Position numbers and translations under genes: made by a program. The notes under the pieces were generated by a model. That model was given only the letters and a program-made list of their open reading frames with translations, was not told where the DNA came from and did not search any database. A DNA stretch of 23,758 nt from a virus, in IMG/VR virus record IMGVR_UViG_3300046477_000234, positions 1 through 23,758 of that record, one strand, 5' to 3'. Positions 2,837-17,399 of the stretch are shown here, in pieces. The stretch's first letter is position 1. Each line of letters starts with the position of its first letter.

Positions 2837-3232
2837 TCAGCGATCAGATCCGCTTCCATGGAGAGTCCCGGCCTGTTTCCTTGCCATGAGCTTTTCGACA
2901 TTCGTTCTCGCAATCTCTTCCAACGTTGTTCCGATCTCACGGCCGAGCGCATTGACGTACCAGAGAACATCTCCAAGTTCCTTGATCAGGGCCTGACGCT
3001 TTGCCTTGGTCATCTCGTTGCCCTGATCCCGGATCATCTTCTTGTATTCTTCTTGGATTCTCCCTGTCGAAGCGCAAACCATTAGGGCCTGAACGAGCGC
3101 CTCGGCAACTTCACCGCCCTCTCCTCCAAGGCCAAGCAACGGGATCGGAGGGTTAACGGATGGATACCGAGAAACCTCAAGAGCCGTTTTGCTGTACAGC
3201 TTGAATGTGAGGTCCGGCAGTTCTTCACTCAC
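2837..3232 (-). CDS. MazG-like nucleotide pyrophosphohydrolase
   Basis: 131 residues from a GTG at 3232 that overlaps the upstream TGA (GTGA), with an AAAGGGGG run upstream. The protein shows the all-alpha NTP-pyrophosphohydrolase signature: GLGGEGGEVAEAL (ExxE-type metal ligands), then KELGDVLWYVNALG (ExxD), then the typical NVEKL-x-R and HGSGSDR tail. Such enzymes convert (d)NTPs, sometimes aberrant ones or (p)ppGpp-related molecules, to monophosphates. Phage copies have been proposed to tune host alarmone levels or clean nucleotide pools. The substrate cannot be read from the sequence. A second, divergent enzyme of this fold is fused to a HAD phosphatase at 21.5-22.5 kb. Confidence 0.85.
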   Translation of the reverse strand: MSEELPDLTFKLYSKTALEVSRYPSVNPPIPLLGLGGEGGEVAEALVQALMVCASTGRIQEEYKKMIRDQGNEMTKAKRQALIKELGDVLWYVNALGREIGTTLEEIARTNVEKLMARKQAGTLHGSGSDR

Positions 3233-4761: not shown

Positions 4762-5443
4762 CCTTCACCCAATTTTCAAAGAAGCTCTCTCCATCACCAA
4801 GACTTCTCACTCGCTTGAGTGGAAGCATATGTACCTTGCCATACTCCTTAGTATTGAAAATCGCCGCCACCCGGTTCAACTGCCTCTTGTAGAAGAACCC
4901 TTCAGGGATCCAACGCTCGAGAATCAAGATCCAAGCATCGGTCCCTTTCCCCTTCATTACAAGCAGGGGAAGGCGGCCATCGCATTTCGCCTCAACCTCT
5001 TTGACCCACTCCGAGTAAATCTTTGGAGTTCCCCAGACCGACCAGCTCAGAAGGTTGTACTGAAGAACATCCTTGTAGTTCCGGCACTCAACATACATCG
5101 GTGGATCTTTGATCCCGTGCTGGCGCGCAATCTCCGGGTCAAGACAAACATCTCCCATCTTCGAAGACGACCAACCACCAGACAGAGGTGTTCTCTTGAG
5201 ATACTGGCGCTTACCAAAGATCCAACGGCTAAGGATTCTTGCCGTCTCTCGCTCATGAGTGTTCCCCTTATTCCGGCCCATCCCTTGTTTGTTCGGAGTA
5301 TGCCAGTTCAGGCTTGCCCGAATCCATCCGCCTTTCTTCCTTTTCCATTTTGGCGGCTTGAATCCCGGCTCTCCGTTCTGGTCGCCTCTCCAATCTCCCT
5401 TCCCGTTGAGCCTGATCCAGAGCTTCTTGACTTTATCAGGCAT
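4703..5443 (-). CDS. PD-(D/E)XK nuclease, Holliday-junction-resolvase-like
   Basis: 246 residues from the ATG at 5443, with GAGG 7 nt upstream and an 8 nt overlap with the upstream gene. A basic N-terminus precedes the nuclease core: NKGNTHERETARILSRW (helix with Glu64), RTPLSGGWSSSKMGDV (Asp98) and MYVECRNYK (Glu119, Cys120, Arg121, Lys124). This order (E, 'R-T-P-x-S-G', GD, ExK) is that of archaeal-type Holliday junction resolvases and related phage nucleases. The usual catalytic Lys in E-x-K is Arg here, with a Lys three residues on that may replace it. It would process recombination or replication intermediates together with RecA and gp46/47, whose genes lie upstream. Confidence 0.65.
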   Translation of the reverse strand: MPDKVKKLWIRLNGKGDWRGDQNGEPGFKPPKWKRKKGGWIRASLNWHTPNKQGMGRNKGNTHERETARILSRWIFGKRQYLKRTPLSGGWSSSKMGDVCLDPEIARQHGIKDPPMYVECRNYKDVLQYNLLSWSVWGTPKIYSEWVKEVEAKCDGRLPLLVMKGKGTDAWILILERWIPEGFFYKRQLNRVAAIFNTKEYGKVHMLPLKRVRSLGDGESFFENWVKDGGPAKLRRLASGSGKANN

Positions 5444-5642
5444 CCTTTATCCTCGCACACAGTTCCATTAGGTCATCGACGGAGATTTCAAGATGTCTGA
5501 AGGAGAGTCGCCGGATGCATTCCGTGATGTACCGGGGCGTTTCCTCAAGAAGGCGGTGGACATTTGTATCGAGCGCAATGTGGTTGGCCTTGATCCACTC
5601 GATCAGCTGCTTTGCGTCGTTCTTGTCCGTGTGATCATACAT
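5436..5642 (-). CDS. Small hypothetical protein
   Basis: 68 residues. I place the start at the ATG at 5642, which overlaps the end of the SbcC-like gene, with CGAGG about 10 nt upstream; an ATG at 5666 in the same frame has a poorer RBS. The sequence is helical and charged (KQLIEWIKANHIALDTN..., VDDLMELCARIKDA), with a His/Asp-rich start. No family is recognised. Its position between the gp46-like and nuclease genes suggests a link to recombination, but that is context only. Confidence 0.5.
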   Translation of the reverse strand: MYDHTDKNDAKQLIEWIKANHIALDTNVHRLLEETPRYITECIRRLSFRHLEISVDDLMELCARIKDA

Positions 5643-7446
5643 GTCGTTCAAGCCTCGTATGCCCATCTTCTTTTACAACCTCAACCCGCTCCGTGAAGTA
5701 TTGCTTGAGCGCGTCCGTATGGGAGATGACAAAGCAAGAGCCAAAGTTCTTCCGCTCTTCGTTGAGAAGCGTTATCACCCGTTCGCTTCCCGCCTCGTCA
5801 AGGCGCTCAAAGGCTTCATCGAATACCATGAGATCAAGGTTGTTCTTCGACCTGCTGCGGGCGAGGTCTTTGAGGGCAAGGGCGACACAGAGATCCACGC
5901 GCTGTCGTTCTCCAGCGGAGTTCCCTCCATAGATACTTGAACCGTCCGAGTTGGTTGCCTTGACGGCAAACTTCTCCTTGTACTCTCCGTTCTTGAGCTT
6001 GGTAACCGTATCAAAGCCAATCCGGATTCTCCCGTCCGTCAGGATCGACGCATAGTGGTTTGCCCGCTCATTCAGGAAGGGGACGACCCCATCGAGGATG
6101 AAGGAGCGGATTCCAACGGGAGAGAATCCCTGCTGCCAGTATTTTCTCTTCTCGTACAACCGCTTGGCCTTCGTTATTTCTTCGTTGTCGCTGGTTGCTT
6201 TGCTTTTGAGCTTCTTGATCTGCTCTTCAAGGTCTGCGATTGACTGCGAAGAAACAGGTCGATTCTTTTTTGTGTATTGGAAAGTTGTTCGTAGGGCGGA
6301 TACCGATGCTCCAGCTTTTGAACAATCTGCTCGAAGTCCGGCGAGCTCATTCGGCCATCCAGATTTTTCCAGACGTCTTTTAAGTCTAGCTCCAATCTTG
6401 CGATGGCGTCGATAGCGGCGCTCCATAGCTTCAGCCTTGCCTCGGAGAGCCCCAAGTCTAGTTTTAAGTTCTGACTTTGCTTTAGCTCGGCCCTCTCGAT
6501 CCATCTCCTGACCACAGGTAGGACAGAGAGAGCCTCTTTCATGCAGAACATCATGTAAATGTTCTCGGAGAGTCGCTTCCTCTTCGTTGTATTCTTCGTA
6601 GAGGTCTTTCGAACGGGCCGCTTCCGCTTGAGCATCTCGTTTTTCGTTTTGCAGCCGAAGCAGTTTGGCTTCCCGCAGTTCACCCTTTTCAACCTCAGCT
6701 TGGAGTCTTTCATGTTCCGCCTTCTTCTCTCTCAATGATTTCTTTAGCGTCCGGAGATTCGCTTTGATCTGCTTTCTCTCCTGACGGTTCTTCTCTTCGT
6801 TGTCAACCAGCTTCGCCTCGAGTTCTTTGATCTCTTCAAGGGCATGGAGCCAAGAAGCTTTCTGAAGCTCGAGGATCATTTTCTGAGCAGAGATTTTACT
6901 GCAGACCAGCTTGTAGGCTTTCTCGTACAAGTCTAGCCCGAGCAGCCGTTCAAGAACCGTCTTCTTCTCCCGGTCCGTCAGGGTCGCAAAGCGGAGACTA
7001 TCTTGACCAAAGAGGATAGAAGAAGCAAAAGTATAAAAGTCAGTGCCGAGCAGATTATTAATCTTGTCCTGAGTCGCTGCGGAGGCAGCCGATCCAGCGT
7101 CTCGATCATTACAACGCAAGTCAAGAGAAGGGCTAGACTTAACTCCGCGAGAACGAAATACAGTCCAAACACGTCCGTCATCATCCTTGATCCGTACTGT
7201 TACAGCACAGCCTCCCGTTGAACGCTCGTTGATAACATCATCAGCTCCAACGTCGTCTCTCAGGACTCTCCCGTACAGCGCCCAGATCAGGGCGTCCCAC
7301 AAGGAGGATTTCCCGGAGCCGTTACTGTTCGAAGAGGGATTATCAAGATTCCTCCCCGTCATGAGGATGATCCCCCGGTTCGCAAGCTTGAGCTTGAGCT
7401 TGCGGATGCTCATGAAGTTCTGGACTCGGATCGAAAGGAATTTCAT
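5635..7446 (-). CDS. sbcC: SbcC/Rad50-like ATPase (T4 gp46-like) of recombination nuclease
   Basis: 603 residues, close to T4 gp46 and much shorter than cellular SbcC. The Walker A motif is NGSGKSS at about 42-48. A Q-loop-like FGQDSLRF is near 146. Coiled-coil arms flank a zinc hook CPTC at 308-311. A second arm is followed by the ABC signature NSAGERQRVDL (about 509-519) and Walker B LDLMVFDEAFERLDE (about 537-551). With the SbcD/gp47 partner encoded at 8840-9967 it should form the complex that resects DNA ends to start recombination-dependent replication. The ATG overlaps the TAA of the upstream gene by 1 nt (TAATG). The two subunits are separated by two Cys-rich genes, unlike the usual adjacent arrangement. 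Confidence 0.93.
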   Translation of the reverse strand: MKFLSIRVQNFMSIRKLKLKLANRGIILMTGRNLDNPSSNSNGSGKSSLWDALIWALYGRVLRDDVGADDVINERSTGGCAVTVRIKDDDGRVWTVFRSRGVKSSPSLDLRCNDRDAGSAASAATQDKINNLLGTDFYTFASSILFGQDSLRFATLTDREKKTVLERLLGLDLYEKAYKLVCSKISAQKMILELQKASWLHALEEIKELEAKLVDNEEKNRQERKQIKANLRTLKKSLREKKAEHERLQAEVEKGELREAKLLRLQNEKRDAQAEAARSKDLYEEYNEEEATLREHLHDVLHERGSLCPTCGQEMDREGRAKAKSELKTRLGALRGKAEAMERRYRRHRKIGARLKRRLEKSGWPNELAGLRADCSKAGASVSALRTTFQYTKKNRPVSSQSIADLEEQIKKLKSKATSDNEEITKAKRLYEKRKYWQQGFSPVGIRSFILDGVVPFLNERANHYASILTDGRIRIGFDTVTKLKNGEYKEKFAVKATNSDGSSIYGGNSAGERQRVDLCVALALKDLARSRSKNNLDLMVFDEAFERLDEAGSERVITLLNEERKNFGSCFVISHTDALKQYFTERVEVVKEDGHTRLERHV

Positions 7447-11387: not shown

Positions 11388-12794
11388 TTACTTCTTCTTC
11401 ATCTTCCGGAGACGTTCAAGAGCGTCCTTCACGTCCTTTTTGCCGCCGCTCTTGTCCTTCTTTGAGGACTTCTTGTCGTCCTCATCGTCGTCTTCGTCTT
11501 CGTCCTCCTCTTCCTCGTCATCATCCTCCTCGTCGTCCTCGTCTTCGTCGTCGTCCTCTTCGTCCTCGTCGTCATCCTTGGACTTGGATTTCTTCGACTT
11601 CTTGTCCTTCTTGGACTTCTTGGAGGGCTTTTCGTCCTCGTCGTCTTCGTCCTCGTCTTCCTCCTCCTCCTCCTCGTCGTCCTCCTCATCCTCGTCGTCT
11701 TCGTCTTCGTCCTCGTCCTCGTCGTCCTTGGACTTCTTCTTTTTCTTCTTGTCGTCCTTGGACTTCTTCTTTTTCTTTACGCTGTCCTTTTTGTCGTCTT
11801 CTTCGTCGTCATCATCTCCATCATCATCGTCATCATCGTCGTCATCATCTCCGTCGTCGTCTTCATCATCGTCATCGTCGTCCTCATCCTCATCATCATC
11901 TTTGGACTTGGATTTCTTGGACTTCTTTGACTTCTTGTCCTTTTTGCTCTTTGAAGAAGACTCATCATCGTCTTCGTCTTCTTCATCATCGTCGTCATCG
12001 TCCTCTTCATCTTCTTCGTCTTCATCGTCGTCCTCGTCGTCATCGTCATCCTCCTTTTTGGATTTCTTCTTCTTGTCCTTGTCCTTCGACTTCTTCTTCT
12101 TGGCCTTGGGCTCGTCGTCCTCCTCGTCGTCATCCTCCTCGTCGTCGTCCTCATCTTCCTTGTCTGAGGAGCCGCCTTCCATGGCCATGATGATGTCCTC
12201 GGGGTCCGGATATTCAACCAGACCCTCCAGATCAGCCGCGTTCTTCATGATCTTCTCCACTCTGTTTACCGGGCTCGGATCTTTCGCAGTACGGACAGCG
12301 TACTTGGTGTCCAGCCCTTCTCCGCTTTTCTCGATGATGATGTCGTAGCCCCGCTGGGGGTCCGAGATATCCCCCCATTCATCGTCCGCGAAGTACGACA
12401 GAATCTGGTCGTAAATCTGCGGACCCGACTTGAACACCTGAGAGACATTGTCCCCGGCCTTGCGGTCGATGATGTTGTAGTAATACTGCTTCTTCGCCTT
12501 GATCGACCGGGCCAGTTCAATATCCCCGGGGTCCTTCGACTTGAACAACTTGCCGACTGCCTCACAGGCAGGGCAGGCCTTGCCGATGTCCTTCGGACAG
12601 GCTAGGCCCTGATCCCCGATGTTGTAGTGGATCGCCGCTTCCTTGTAGAACGTGTCCTGATCCCCCTTCGGAGGGAGGATGCGGATTTTGTTCTTCCCGT
12701 CTTCCGGCTTCCACCACGAGCGACCCTGCGTGTCCTTCTTCTTTTGGACATCTCGCATGGCCTTCTTCATCTTCTTCAGGTTTACCGTACCCAC
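11388..12794 (-). CDS. gp32-like ssDNA-binding protein with a very long charged tail
   Basis: 468 residues from the GTG at 12794, with AGGAGG 5 nt upstream. Residues 1-205 form the folded part: a basic N-terminus (cooperativity arm in T4 gp32), WWKPEDGKNKIRILPP, and a zinc site His57, Cys66, Cys74, Cys77 as in gp32, followed by OB-fold-like strands with aromatic residues (KKQYYYNIID). From about residue 211 to 440 runs a tail of Asp/Glu blocks alternating with Lys/Ser blocks. It ends with a basic, helical segment (KDVKDALERLRKMKKK). T4 gp32 has only about 50 acidic residues at its end, which recruit replication partners. The protein coats ssDNA for the polymerase and RecA systems encoded around it. 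Confidence 0.88.
   Translation of the reverse strand: MGTVNLKKMKKAMRDVQKKKDTQGRSWWKPEDGKNKIRILPPKGDQDTFYKEAAIHYNIGDQGLACPKDIGKACPACEAVGKLFKSKDPGDIELARSIKAKKQYYYNIIDRKAGDNVSQVFKSGPQIYDQILSYFADDEWGDISDPQRGYDIIIEKSGEGLDTKYAVRTAKDPSPVNRVEKIMKNAADLEGLVEYPDPEDIIMAMEGGSSDKEDEDDDEEDDDEEDDEPKAKKKKSKDKDKKKKSKKEDDDDDEDDDEDEEDEEDDDDDDEEDEDDDESSSKSKKDKKSKKSKKSKSKDDDEDEDDDDDDEDDDGDDDDDDDDDDGDDDDEEDDKKDSVKKKKKSKDDKKKKKKSKDDEDEDEDEDDEDEEDDEEEEEEDEDEDDEDEKPSKKSKKDKKSKKSKSKDDDEDEEDDDEDEDDEEDDDEEEEDEDEDDDEDDKKSSKKDKSGGKKDVKDALERLRKMKKK
11474..12164 (-). repeat. Imperfect trinucleotide repeat tract encoding the Asp/Glu/Lys tail
   Basis: About 690 nt built almost only of GAT/GAC/GAA/GAG and AAG/AAA/TCC/TCC-like codons. 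On the plus strand it appears as TCN repeats and opens a long false poly-Ser frame. Four internal basic modules (such as KSKKDKKSKKSKKSKSK) interrupt five acidic blocks. The repetition suggests growth by slippage or unequal recombination, so its length may vary between isolates or be misassembled. Confidence 0.8.
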
Positions 12795-13293: not shown

Positions 13294-13489
13294 GCCTGAC
13301 GCTCCTTATTTTCATTCCAGCCATCGAGAAATTCTTCTTGTAGCCTAGAGCCCGCTTGAACTGACGGCAATCCGAGTGATGAAGGCAGGGCCCAAGATTT
13401 TTCCTCAAGCCAATCGTCCGGTGGGATTGCCTCGTGCAACCGCACTCGCAGTGAACCGTCCGGGGCCATTGTCTGAAGCAGATCGTCAC
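13286..13489 (-). CDS. Small Cys/His-rich zinc-binding protein
   Basis: 67 residues from the GTG at 13489, overlapping the TGA of the UDG-fusion gene (GTGA), with AGGA 7 nt upstream. It contains HCECGCTRQSH and then CLHHSDCRQFK, a C-x-C-x-C...H...C...C arrangement seen in many small phage Zn proteins. The stop overlaps the ATG of the next gene (ATGGCTAA). An alternative ORF in another frame over the same bases (13281-13514) lacks these features. Function unknown. Confidence 0.6.
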   Translation of the reverse strand: MTICFRQWPRTVHCECGCTRQSHRTIGLRKNLGPCLHHSDCRQFKRALGYKKNFSMAGMKIRSVRHG

Positions 13490-14871
13490 AAGAAATTCCT
13501 AACAACAGTCGCAAACTCGGTCAGGGCTTTCTGGAGGACCGGGAGATTGGCGGCCCTATCGTAGAGAGCCGACGCGGGGTGGAGACAATAGGTGACCCAA
13601 GCTTCCGCTCGGTTATTCCACTCCGTTTTCCCGCTCCACTCCGTGATCCCTTTGTTAATCTTCCTGAAGTAATATAACGCTGAGTTTCCGGATGCTAAGA
13701 TGAATTTCGGGCGGAATCTTTTGATTGCTTCGGTTGCCCAAGGACACTTCGTGACGTAGGTAATATTAGGAAGCTTGTTGTTTGGCGGGCGGCACGCAAC
13801 AGTATTTGCGACAATACAATCGTTTCGCCTAATACCAACCTTCTCGAGTTCATCGAACAACAAGCGTCCGGATTTTCCGATGAAGCCTCGGCCTTCTCGG
13901 TCCTCTTGTTCCCCCGGTGCTTCTCCAAGAACCATGAGATTGAGTCTTCCAATTGACGGCGGAACAGGCGCGTGACAGCCTTTATGCAATGGGCACAGGG
14001 TACAAGCTTTGACTTTCTTCTTCCACTCTCTCTCTTCGAAGCCATCTTTGTCTATGCCTCCAACAATCGGCAGCTCGATCTTCCCCGGCCTTCCCTTTGC
14101 GATCTGAGAGAGAAGCCGGAAATCCTCAATCATTACATTCTGCTTCCGGGCGAACGGAACATTCGCTTGAAACACCGCCACTTCGCCCTTAATGTTCTGG
14201 ATCGTCTCCCGCCTCTTCTTGTAAAGCTTCGGGGAATAAATCCCCATCGTGAAGGTCGTCCCATCATCAAGATTCCCATAGATCCCGCCAAGAGCATCAG
14301 CAGTACCAACATTTTTCTTTTCCCCGGCGGCCTTCGCCCTCTCCTTGTATCCGAACTTGATTGAGGTCGCCTGAGCGATGATGTTCCTCAGCTTCATGTC
14401 TTTCTTGGAGTTGTCGATGTCCTTGATCTTCTGAACAGGGACCGTCTCCATGATAAGCTTACAAAGCCGCCGATACTCCCCGAAGATATCGTTGCTCGTC
14501 TTGAAGTTGAGGGCCTCGGCTTGCTCGTTCAGGACTTCATCCAGCTTCATCTCCCAGTCCTGCTCGATGGATTTTCTCTTCTCGTCTAGGACCGCCTCGA
14601 GCTTCTTCGTCCCAAGCAAGGGGTACAGTTCGTCAAAGTGCATCTTCCAGAGCTTCGCCTTCTCCTCTCCAAGGAGATTATCAAAGGCGCTACTGTAGAC
14701 GAGCATCTTGACGACTCGGACGTTGACTTTCCTGCGGTCAATCGTGTCGATGAACTGATTGAAGTTCTTGAATTCCCCTCCGCAGCGCTCCCGGGCCGTC
14801 AGGATCGCCTCTTGCGCTGTCTCCCCGCACATCTTGACTTGACTGAGGCCCGCCCGAATTTTCTCTTTCAT
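13486..14871 (-). CDS. DnaE C-terminal half (HhH + OB) fused to Fe-S uracil-DNA glycosylase
   Basis: 461 residues from the ATG at 14871, which overlaps the TGA of the upstream DnaE gene (ATGA). Residues 1-66 (IRAGLSQVKMCGETAQEAIL ... RRKVNVRVVKML ... SAFDNLL) match the helix-hairpin-helix part of family-C polymerases, directly continuing the upstream protein. Residues about 160-240 look like the DnaE OB fold (GTTFTMGIYSPKLYKKRRE). From about 285 there is a family-4-type UDG: Cys290, Cys293, Cys360 and Cys376 as 4Fe-4S ligands, GEAPGEQED (316-324), CRPPNNKLP and HPASALY (431-437). The enzyme would excise uracil at or near the replication fork. UDG fused to a family-A polymerase is known in phage SPO1; fusion to a split DnaE is new to me. 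Confidence 0.88.
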   Translation of the reverse strand: MKEKIRAGLSQVKMCGETAQEAILTARERCGGEFKNFNQFIDTIDRRKVNVRVVKMLVYSSAFDNLLGEEKAKLWKMHFDELYPLLGTKKLEAVLDEKRKSIEQDWEMKLDEVLNEQAEALNFKTSNDIFGEYRRLCKLIMETVPVQKIKDIDNSKKDMKLRNIIAQATSIKFGYKERAKAAGEKKNVGTADALGGIYGNLDDGTTFTMGIYSPKLYKKRRETIQNIKGEVAVFQANVPFARKQNVMIEDFRLLSQIAKGRPGKIELPIVGGIDKDGFEEREWKKKVKACTLCPLHKGCHAPVPPSIGRLNLMVLGEAPGEQEDREGRGFIGKSGRLLFDELEKVGIRRNDCIVANTVACRPPNNKLPNITYVTKCPWATEAIKRFRPKFILASGNSALYYFRKINKGITEWSGKTEWNNRAEAWVTYCLHPASALYDRAANLPVLQKALTEFATVVRNFL

Positions 14872-17399
14872 TCTGTCACCGTCCAACCCGCCTCGGACTT
14901 ATTGATGTCCGGAGTCACCGCCTTGAGCCCCATTCGCTTCGCCTCCTTAAGGGCAATGTCGATCTTGTCTTCGGCTGAAGCAGCGTCTTCCCCACCGACC
15001 GATCCGAAGTTGAGATGGGCCGTGAAGAACTGTAGAGGATACTTGATCTTCAGCCACATCGTCAGGTAACTCAGGATTCCATACTCAACAGCGTGGGACC
15101 GATTGAAGGCATAGATACCGAAGAATTTCAGGTTGTCGAAGAATTCCTCGGCCTCGTCATACTTCATCGTCCCCTTTTTGACGCAGCCCTTGGCGTACAT
15201 CTTTTTGTAGGTCTTCCATTTGTCCGTCCCTTCGGACTTCGAAATGACCTTGCGAACCTGATCGGTTGTTTTCCAAGGGATGCCAGCCATATTGTACAGC
15301 AGGAACATGATCTGTTCTTGGTAGATGATCTGCCCGCAGGTTGCCTTTGTAATGTCCCGATGGATGTCGTTGAAGTATTCCGCCTCCTCCCGGCCTAGCT
15401 TGATCTGCATGTACTTCTGCGTGATCCCGGCCTTCAAGCATCCCGGCCGCCAGAGAGCGGAGGAGTCTACCAATGTTTCGAAGTCTGAGACTTCAAGCTC
15501 CTTGCAGTATTTCTGTAGGCCCTTCGATCCGATCTGAAAGGCGCAGACAGTGTTCCCCGCCCGGATCTCTTTGTAGATGTCGGGGTCGTGGAGCCCGATT
15601 GTATAGTAATCAAGCTCCTTCCCGTACTTCTCCCGGATCAGCCGCCTCGCCTCGTTCATGACCGACAGGGTTGACAGGCCGAGCACGTCCAGCTTCATTA
15701 GGCCCATCTGCTCAAGGTCTTCCTTGTCCCAGTTGACCGTCAGCCTTCCGTTTCTTTTTACAAGATAGCAGTTGCCGGCCTCTCTCAGGTCCTTCTTGCT
15801 GACGACATAGCCCGCTGCGTGGACTCCGCAGGTCTTGATCTGGCCTTCGATCTTCGAAGCATACTTGATGACGTGCGGATATTTCTGATTGAACTTCTTT
15901 GCCTCTTCGAAGACTTCGACGGTGTCAAGGATACTGAAAGAGGCTCTCGCGTCCATTTCCGGCCGGATCAGGATACACTTCGACATCCCATCCGCCTCGG
16001 CTCTTGGGACTTCAAAGAGTCTCGAGACATCCCGGACCGCCTGTTTCCCTCTCATGACCCCGAAGGTTGAGACGTGGGCAACATTCCATTCGCCGTACTT
16101 CTCCTTCAGGTACTTTTCAATGAGGTGCCGCTTGCGATCCTCAAAGTCAATATCAATATCCGGAAGGTCTACACGGCCTTCCGAGATGAATCTTTCAAAG
16201 ATGAGATTGTGTTCAATCGGGTCAACTTCAGTGATCCGGAGAAGATAAGCAACAAGGCTACCACCGACAGAACCTCGTCCGTGTCCAACCAGAATGTCGT
16301 TGGATTTTGCCCAGCAAATGAGATCAGCAACCAGAAGCATATACCGTACAAAACCACCATGGATCATCGCCTCCAGTTCCAGATGACAACGGTTAATGTA
16401 CTTCGACTTGTTCAGCCCTCGCCTCTCCAGTTCCTTCCGGCACTTGTCGATAAGGTAGGATGTTTCGTCGATGCCCTCTTCAAGGACCCGGGGGAGATCA
16501 ACGGGGACTTTTTTCATTTCGAACTGACACTTCTCCGCAACTTCCATTGTGTTCCAGATCGACGCCCTTGCGACGTCCCGCTCGATCCCCATAAGCTGAA
16601 GGGAATCAAACATCTCTTGGGCGTCCCGCATGTAGTTCAGGTGCGTGTCGAACTTCCAACGGTTCGGATTATTCCAAGTCATCCCCTTCTGTCCGATCCC
16701 AAGGATGACATCGTGGATCTTGTGGTCCTTCTCGCACAGGAAGTGGATATCGTTCGTCGCAATCGGATTGATTCCCAGTTCGTCGGCGGCCGTCAACGCA
16801 AGCGTGTTTACATTCCCCTGATGGGCTAGGTCGTGCAAGGGCATGATCTCTGCGTAGAGATCCTCCTTGAAAGCTTCATAGTATTGGCCCAGCAGGTCAA
16901 TCCCCTTCTCCGCATTCCAGAATGGGCTTGAGGCGCATCCTGTTTGAATGATGACGTCCCCGGCCCAATCATTTTTCAACGGGTAGTCCATCGGCAGGAA
17001 GGGCCGCGAACTCCAGCCCCGTTTCGCCGTCCCGGAGATGTTCGCGTAGCCGAGTCCAATCAAAAGCTTCTTGAACCCTCTCTCATTCTTCGCATGGGCA
17101 ATCAGGTGTAGGTTCTTGTGCTTGAACTTTAAATCGTCCTTCTTGTCCCAATGCTCGAGCATGTACAGCTCGCAGCCGAAGATGGGCTTGATCTTGTATT
17201 CCTTTTTCTCCTTGTCGTAGCAAGCGTTATTGAACTTGATCACCCCGTCCATCGACCCGTGGTTAGACGTCGCAATGTACTTGTGGCCCTTGTCGATGGC
17301 CCCCTTCACAAGGTCTTTGACTTTCACCGCCCCGTCGAGGAGGCTGAACTCATCGTGGACGTGGAGGTTTACAAAGTCTTTGTTCTTTAGCTTTTTCAT
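14868..17399 (-). CDS. dnaE: DNA polymerase III alpha-type polymerase, N-terminal and catalytic part
   Basis: 843 residues. The ATG at 17399 overlaps the TGA of the preceding gene (ATGA). The PHP domain comes first, with metal ligands His13 and His15 (LHVHDEFSLLDG), His47 (TSNHGSMDGV), Glu77 (GCELY) and ATNDIHFL near 214-221, so it looks intact and may proofread. The palm has GHGRGSVGGSLVAYLL (372-387), catalytic PDIDIDF (Asp416, Asp418) and LMKLDVLGLSTL (Asp571). NRSHAVEYG lies near the end. The protein stops at GWTVTE, exactly before the HhH domain, which the next gene encodes. Together the two halves give a normal DnaE length (about 1100 residues) before the UDG. It should be the phage replicative polymerase. 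Confidence 0.95.
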   Translation of the reverse strand: MKKLKNKDFVNLHVHDEFSLLDGAVKVKDLVKGAIDKGHKYIATSNHGSMDGVIKFNNACYDKEKKEYKIKPIFGCELYMLEHWDKKDDLKFKHKNLHLIAHAKNERGFKKLLIGLGYANISGTAKRGWSSRPFLPMDYPLKNDWAGDVIIQTGCASSPFWNAEKGIDLLGQYYEAFKEDLYAEIMPLHDLAHQGNVNTLALTAADELGINPIATNDIHFLCEKDHKIHDVILGIGQKGMTWNNPNRWKFDTHLNYMRDAQEMFDSLQLMGIERDVARASIWNTMEVAEKCQFEMKKVPVDLPRVLEEGIDETSYLIDKCRKELERRGLNKSKYINRCHLELEAMIHGGFVRYMLLVADLICWAKSNDILVGHGRGSVGGSLVAYLLRITEVDPIEHNLIFERFISEGRVDLPDIDIDFEDRKRHLIEKYLKEKYGEWNVAHVSTFGVMRGKQAVRDVSRLFEVPRAEADGMSKCILIRPEMDARASFSILDTVEVFEEAKKFNQKYPHVIKYASKIEGQIKTCGVHAAGYVVSKKDLREAGNCYLVKRNGRLTVNWDKEDLEQMGLMKLDVLGLSTLSVMNEARRLIREKYGKELDYYTIGLHDPDIYKEIRAGNTVCAFQIGSKGLQKYCKELEVSDFETLVDSSALWRPGCLKAGITQKYMQIKLGREEAEYFNDIHRDITKATCGQIIYQEQIMFLLYNMAGIPWKTTDQVRKVISKSEGTDKWKTYKKMYAKGCVKKGTMKYDEAEEFFDNLKFFGIYAFNRSHAVEYGILSYLTMWLKIKYPLQFFTAHLNFGSVGGEDAASAEDKIDIALKEAKRMGLKAVTPDINKSEAGWTVTE

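Follow-up and report, generated by a model that had tools for sequence, protein, structure and literature searches.

An unusual but explicable gene split in a phage C-family polymerase of the known DnaE-UDG fusion type

Some strains of Yersinia pestis and Salmonella enterica possess an additional polymerase in which a uracil-DNA glycosylase (UDG) is fused to a C-family (DnaE) polymerase, as described in 2013 (PMC3919608). In the same work, PHP-Pol3-(HhH)2 emerged as the nearly universal DnaE core, and in the 'DnaEX' variant (Timinskas et al.) the UDG replaces the OB and CTD domains. The Yersinia and Salmonella cases appear to be SSU5-like elements. Like 'DnaEX', Salmonella phage SSU5, Nickievirus nickie and Rhizobium phage RHEph10 carry a UDG of family PF03167 at the C-terminus of a one-chain C-family polymerase, and the GenBank record of RHEph10 already notes "uracil-DNA glycosylase-like". 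The isolates checked lack the N-terminal Cys pair and the His of the HP motif. Type-4-like UDGs are also attached to phage replicative polymerases of family A (PaBG, PMC7412058; phiLo, structure 9qhs; the SPO1 type). These are one-chain enzymes with an N-terminal UDG and represent a separate fusion.

Replicative polymerases from two cistrons are known as well. In the T4-type Aeromonas phages 25 and 44RR, a family B polymerase is split into gp43A and gp43B; in phage 25 the two are purified together and show polymerase activity (PMC2988022). These polymerases are without a UDG, their break is tied to a homing endonuclease or an untranslated spacer, and the breaks of relatives hold differing sequences. 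GenBank also contains phage C-family polymerases made from two genes, namely in Mycobacterium phage Rope (gp72/gp74), Arthrobacter phage Wollypog (gp56/gp59), Microbacterium phage Cybele (gp56/gp57) and Enterococcus phage EF5, some of them with an HNH or other gene in between. None of these is broken ahead of the HhH: the break lies either between PHP and polymerase (residues ~298-333) or inside the polymerase (~415). For a UDG, their annotation was inspected. In cyanobacteria the DnaE is likewise encoded by two genes, but its halves carry a split intein and are joined by protein splicing. The site of this intein presumably lies near the motif that matches YAFN in the present sequence, ~75 residues upstream of the break described below.

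The window, i.e. the whole stretch of DNA that was analysed, is a linear virus record of 23,758 bases. Two overlapping frames on it (Table 1) represent a known type of fusion with an unusual, though explicable, gene split. In comparison to the variant described in PMC3919608, the OB-like domain and an intact UDG4 are retained. What is new is the position of the break (Pol3 | HhH), combined with an apparently intact UDG4 and with genes inserted at the break in relatives. Neither a DnaE interrupted ahead of the HhH nor a two-gene DnaE with a UDG was found described in the open-licence literature.

Table 1. Features of the split polymerase locus in the window.
Feature	Position	Strand	Basis
DnaE-N chain P0001, 843 aa: PHP, palm, thumb, fingers	14868..17399 (incl. 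stop codon)	(-)	Pfam/PHROG/NCBIfam matches; PDB sequence matches
ATGA start/stop overlap, junction of both cistrons	14868..14871	(-)	sequence, frames
DnaE-C/UDG chain P0002, 461 aa: HhH ~1-80, helical linker, OB-like ~155-260, type-4-like UDG ~283-461	13486..14871	(-)	
Family-4-like uracil-DNA glycosylase domain: four Cys, GEAPGEQED, N, HPAS	13486..14025	(-)	

The P0001 frame, read from 17399 to 14868, closes with GWTVTE-TGA, and the ATG at 14871 overlaps this stop codon. P0002 starts with MKEKIRAGLSQVKMCGE. An alternative opening codon of its frame is the TTG at 14886; in the related contigs L002 and L003, the C chain begins at the residue equivalent to the ATG, not at this TTG. Pfam places PHP, DNA_pol3_alpha and DNA_pol3_finger on P0001, and HHH_6 and UDG on P0002. 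The TIGR00594 model is followed by P0001 up to position 817 and by P0002 from 818, and thus no residues are missing at the break; with PRK05673, P0001 stops at 818 and P0002 picks up at 821. By sequence, the break corresponds to a point between residues ~818 and 832 of E. coli alpha. In the terms of PMC3919608, the break as placed by these domain assignments cuts the core between Pol3 and (HhH)2. An earlier note on this DNA had claimed a DnaE split by ATGA at a domain border, with the expected next DnaE segment in the second frame and the UDG on the second chain. The frames, the Pfam domains and the continuity of the profile bear this out. As also stated there, the arrangement is not that of the SPO1 type, since the polymerase belongs to family C and the UDG sits on the C chain.

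The catalytic Asp motifs of P0001 are intact (PDIDIDF, residues 413-419, and KLDVLG, residues 569-574; three Asp), and its sequence matches in the PDB are the Pol III alpha of E. coli, Taq and Mtb. For the PHP domain, an active and proofreading-competent form is marked by the signature HHDHEH[C/H]DH (PMC12926913). All nine residues are kept in P0001 (H13, H15, D22, H47, E77, H98, C155, D217 and H219; positions assigned by eye), so that its PHP domain would be able to proofread. The (HhH)2 domain that follows the fingers is present but located on the second chain (HHH_6, 7.3e-13). With a PHP domain, a Pol3 core and fingers, P0001 and P0002 together classify as a C-family polymerase, for which polymerase activity is predicted. 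The AlphaFold model of P0002 has a mean pLDDT of 91.4. In this model, a five-strand segment (158-253) fits an OB-like domain and is compatible in topology with the OB fold that had been proposed earlier. This assignment rests on the model topology and on Foldseek matches to Pol III alpha, because the alignment rows cover the UDG alone.

In the UDG domain, the four Cys are located in CTLC, ACRPP and KCPW and are invariant in the alignments. The other motifs are all present as well (GEAPG..ED, Asn and HPAS); of these residues, the four Cys, GEAPG and HPAS had already been pointed out from the sequence. Residues 279-461 of the predicted model resemble Thermus UDGa (1ui0) with a Z of 25.5 and an rmsd of 1.7 over 181 residues. 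The family-4 profiles TIGR00758 and NF040953 stay below their curated NCBIfam cut-offs (102.6 bits against 125.3, and 107 bits against 250, respectively), and the domain is therefore labelled a type-4-like UDG whose activity is not to be assumed. Both models outscore the UdgX model (71.3 bits on P0002), by which an identity as uracil-crosslinking UdgX was rejected.

The earlier note had asked whether the split is conserved in phage genomes. The same break is indeed found in two contigs from other metagenomes: L002 (51.5 kb; N chain 88% and C chain 78% identical to the window) and L003 (47.3 kb; 83% and 78%). A narrower viral search that used just the HhH-OB part matched these two and nothing else, and in a host/prophage search with the C-chain alignment no relative was found in GTDB genomes. 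The N chains stop at the same place, with GWSVTE in L002 and GWTVSE in L003. In L002, a 60-aa ORF with a GGAGG ribosome-binding site lies between the halves, and the C chain opens with a GTG overlapping the stop of this ORF. In L003 the halves are separated by a sigma-70-like ORF (Sigma70_r2, Sigma70_r4_2) at 5343-5990, and the C chain opens with a TTG. No other copy of the sigma-like or the 60-aa gene occurs in the window, L002, L003, L076 and L092 contigs, which suggests that they were inserted locally and are not neighbouring genes that have moved. The sigma-70-like frame of L003 overlaps the end of the first polymerase half. Sigma genes are also located near the DnaE in GBK1, Blastoid, RHEph10 and B1VFA.

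Purifying selection acts strongly on both halves. Nei-Gojobori counts for the window, L002 and L003 gave a pS of 0.67-0.77, against a pN of 0.075-0.101 in the N half and 0.131-0.153 in the C half; as synonymous sites are near saturation, Ks cannot be quoted as a value. It is exceedingly improbable that the break is a sequencing or assembly error or belongs to a decaying pseudogene. Some relatives do show such damage (two breaks in L131, against an intact sequence in its close relative L106), but here the break point is shared by three independent contigs whose junction sequences differ, the active-site residues are intact and selection is maintained on both halves. Chance is excluded by the recurrence of the identical break in two further contigs. 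A single-base error hiding one long ORF, which the earlier note had named as the finding that would overturn its reading, is ruled out by the genes between the halves in L002 and L003.

It is also very improbable that both frames end up as one chain via programmed frameshifting or splicing. The two frames overlap by 31 nt, the domains are contiguous and one-chain relatives exist. However, this 31-nt region open in both frames contains no in-phase -1 slippery heptamer, and an Rfam intron match is absent from the window, L002 and L003. Neither P0001 nor P0002 has intein ends or a Hint/intein Pfam match, which agrees with the earlier exclusion of an intein at the break and sets the window apart from the cyanobacterial split DnaE; an intein profile does match in the cousins L097 and L146. 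The inserts that cousins carry near the C-terminal part of the polymerase lie ~75 residues upstream, at YAFN/RSHA. Moreover, one chain via a simple frameshift is impossible in L002 and L003, because genes sit between the halves. The separate translation of both chains is therefore strongly supported.

Relatives in which the two parts are joined were collected by a scan of viral contigs with the UDG alignment, followed by six-frame profile searches. Many contigs contain DnaE and UDG in one open frame of ~1070-1290 aa (longer with inteins); once near-identical copies had been removed, 42 sequences from metagenomes and 5 from isolates remained. The metagenomic DnaE-UDG4 chains (L076, L092, L112 and others) share the domain order and the conserved Cys and His with the window, but are not split. 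The arrangement had been called unusual at first sight. This holds for the two-chain split, which is real, but not for the fusion as such, which is common in phages and was published in 2013. In a FastTree phylogeny of the polymerase domain, the window, L002 and L003 are monophyletic (support 1.0). The fused L076 is sister to them (0.998; its polymerase domain is 61% and its UDG 53% identical to those of the window), followed by the fused L092 (0.992) and L112 (0.915). As the split trio is nested in the fused group, the fusion is older and the split derived, most simply through one event inside this group. The breaks in L002 and L003 tolerate inserted genes, and the split may have been caused by a gene inserted at the break and later lost from the window lineage.

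Two candidates for further splits were rejected: L131 has several frame breaks, which are absent from L106, and that of L100 lies within an intein-like insert. Several fused relatives carry inserts in the DnaE part, with a Pfam intein match in L097, an intein-like end (THN/S, by eye) in L100, and long unexplained inserts in L113 (near P0001-equivalent residue 767) and L098. L097 and L113 are the ones interrupted at the YAFN/RSHA motif. In L146 and L150 (1696-6330), an intein-like insertion of ~380 aa is found inside the UDG, next to the third Cys, and contains Intein_splicing and a DUF559/Vsr-like endonuclease. A different break is seen in L084 (4968-9316) and in L085-L088 (one contig of 159 kb), all without UDG. 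Here, the DnaE is interrupted a short way past the third catalytic Asp motif (~578/615 in P0001-equivalent residues), and a 231-aa exonuclease ORF (PF00929), from ~7039, lies between the parts.

Most probably, the two frames of the window are two functional cistrons of one replicase that was derived by fission and would reassemble, with the UDG excising uracil. The ancestor would have been a one-chain phage polymerase, PHP-Pol3-(HhH)2-OB-UDG4, whose gene was cut at the Pol3/(HhH)2 border before the three lineages (the window phage, L002 and L003) diverged. Both chains would then be translated separately, coupled in the window via the ATGA overlap, and would reassemble non-covalently through the former fingers-HhH interface. 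Such an assembly into an active C-family polymerase is suggested by the precedent of gp43A and gp43B in phage 25 (PMC2988022). The C-terminal UDG4, judging from its intact residues, would remove uracil from the DNA handled by the polymerase, near the fork. Since the window is a 23.8-kb fragment, another replicative polymerase may exist elsewhere in the phage.

The role of the UDG can also be read differently. In L002 the second Gly of GEAPG is lost (GEAPR), HPAS is replaced and the catalytic His is gone, while the domain is otherwise similar; this UDG is predicted to be inactive. Nevertheless, it does not evolve visibly faster and purifying selection persists (Nei-Gojobori counts). UDG catalysis is thus not strictly required in the split clade. 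The isolates among the Nickievirus, SSU5 and Rhizobium/Stenotrophomonas phages (nickie, SSU5, RHEph10, ANB28 and B1VFA; L166 and L168-L171) retain the UDG fold at the DnaE C-terminus after loss of the N-terminal Cys pair and the HP-His. Their UDG domains are probably catalytically dead, yet kept on the replicative polymerase. A rather unlikely alternative is that the UDG chiefly acts as a DNA-holding or processivity module, with uracil excision being secondary and repeatedly lost. Its model is vaccinia D4, for which PMC1936997 gives a catalysis-independent role in replication. The C-family replicase that carries such a holder would lack the tau-binding CTD and might also have no clamp encoded by the phage. 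A search for dnaN in 14 related contigs gave no match above the cut-off and one weak match, but these contigs are all possibly incomplete, which makes the absence uninformative for fragments, and the phage could use the host clamp. In the same possibly incomplete contigs, a dUTPase match (PF00692) was found in 0 of 14. Against the alternative, four Cys and the His are kept in 41/41 full-length metagenomic fused UDGs, pointing to selection for catalysis in most lineages, whereas the decay of the UDGs in the isolates speaks for a non-catalytic role of some kind.

A bolder and rather doubtful proposal is that a large uncultivated phage group has swapped the clamp- and tau-linked C-terminus for an iron-sulfur UDG, serving as both processivity module and uracil sensor and perhaps sensitive to the redox state of the cluster. 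The separate second chain would let the phage vary or exchange its UDG chain.

Selection can preserve the near-invariant PHP-Pol3-(HhH)2 core even when it is divided between Pol3 and HhH, and other genes settle in the cut after the core is split. UDG folds are now seen on family A as well as family C polymerases of phages, and in poxviruses one was recruited to a family B polymerase. The occurrence of apparently active and decayed UDGs on homologous DnaEs makes it testable whether replication needs the glycosylase or only its grip on DNA.

The window contains further genes of note. An SSB-like protein (phrog_1192; 11388-12794, (-) strand) has a C-terminal tail of ~250 residues built nearly exclusively from D, E, K and S, and a tail of this kind is also present in L002 and L003. 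In the same gene cluster, a NADAR-domain protein (PF08719, 3.9e-25; 2302-2976, (-) strand) adjoins a MazG-like pyrophosphohydrolase at 2837-3232.
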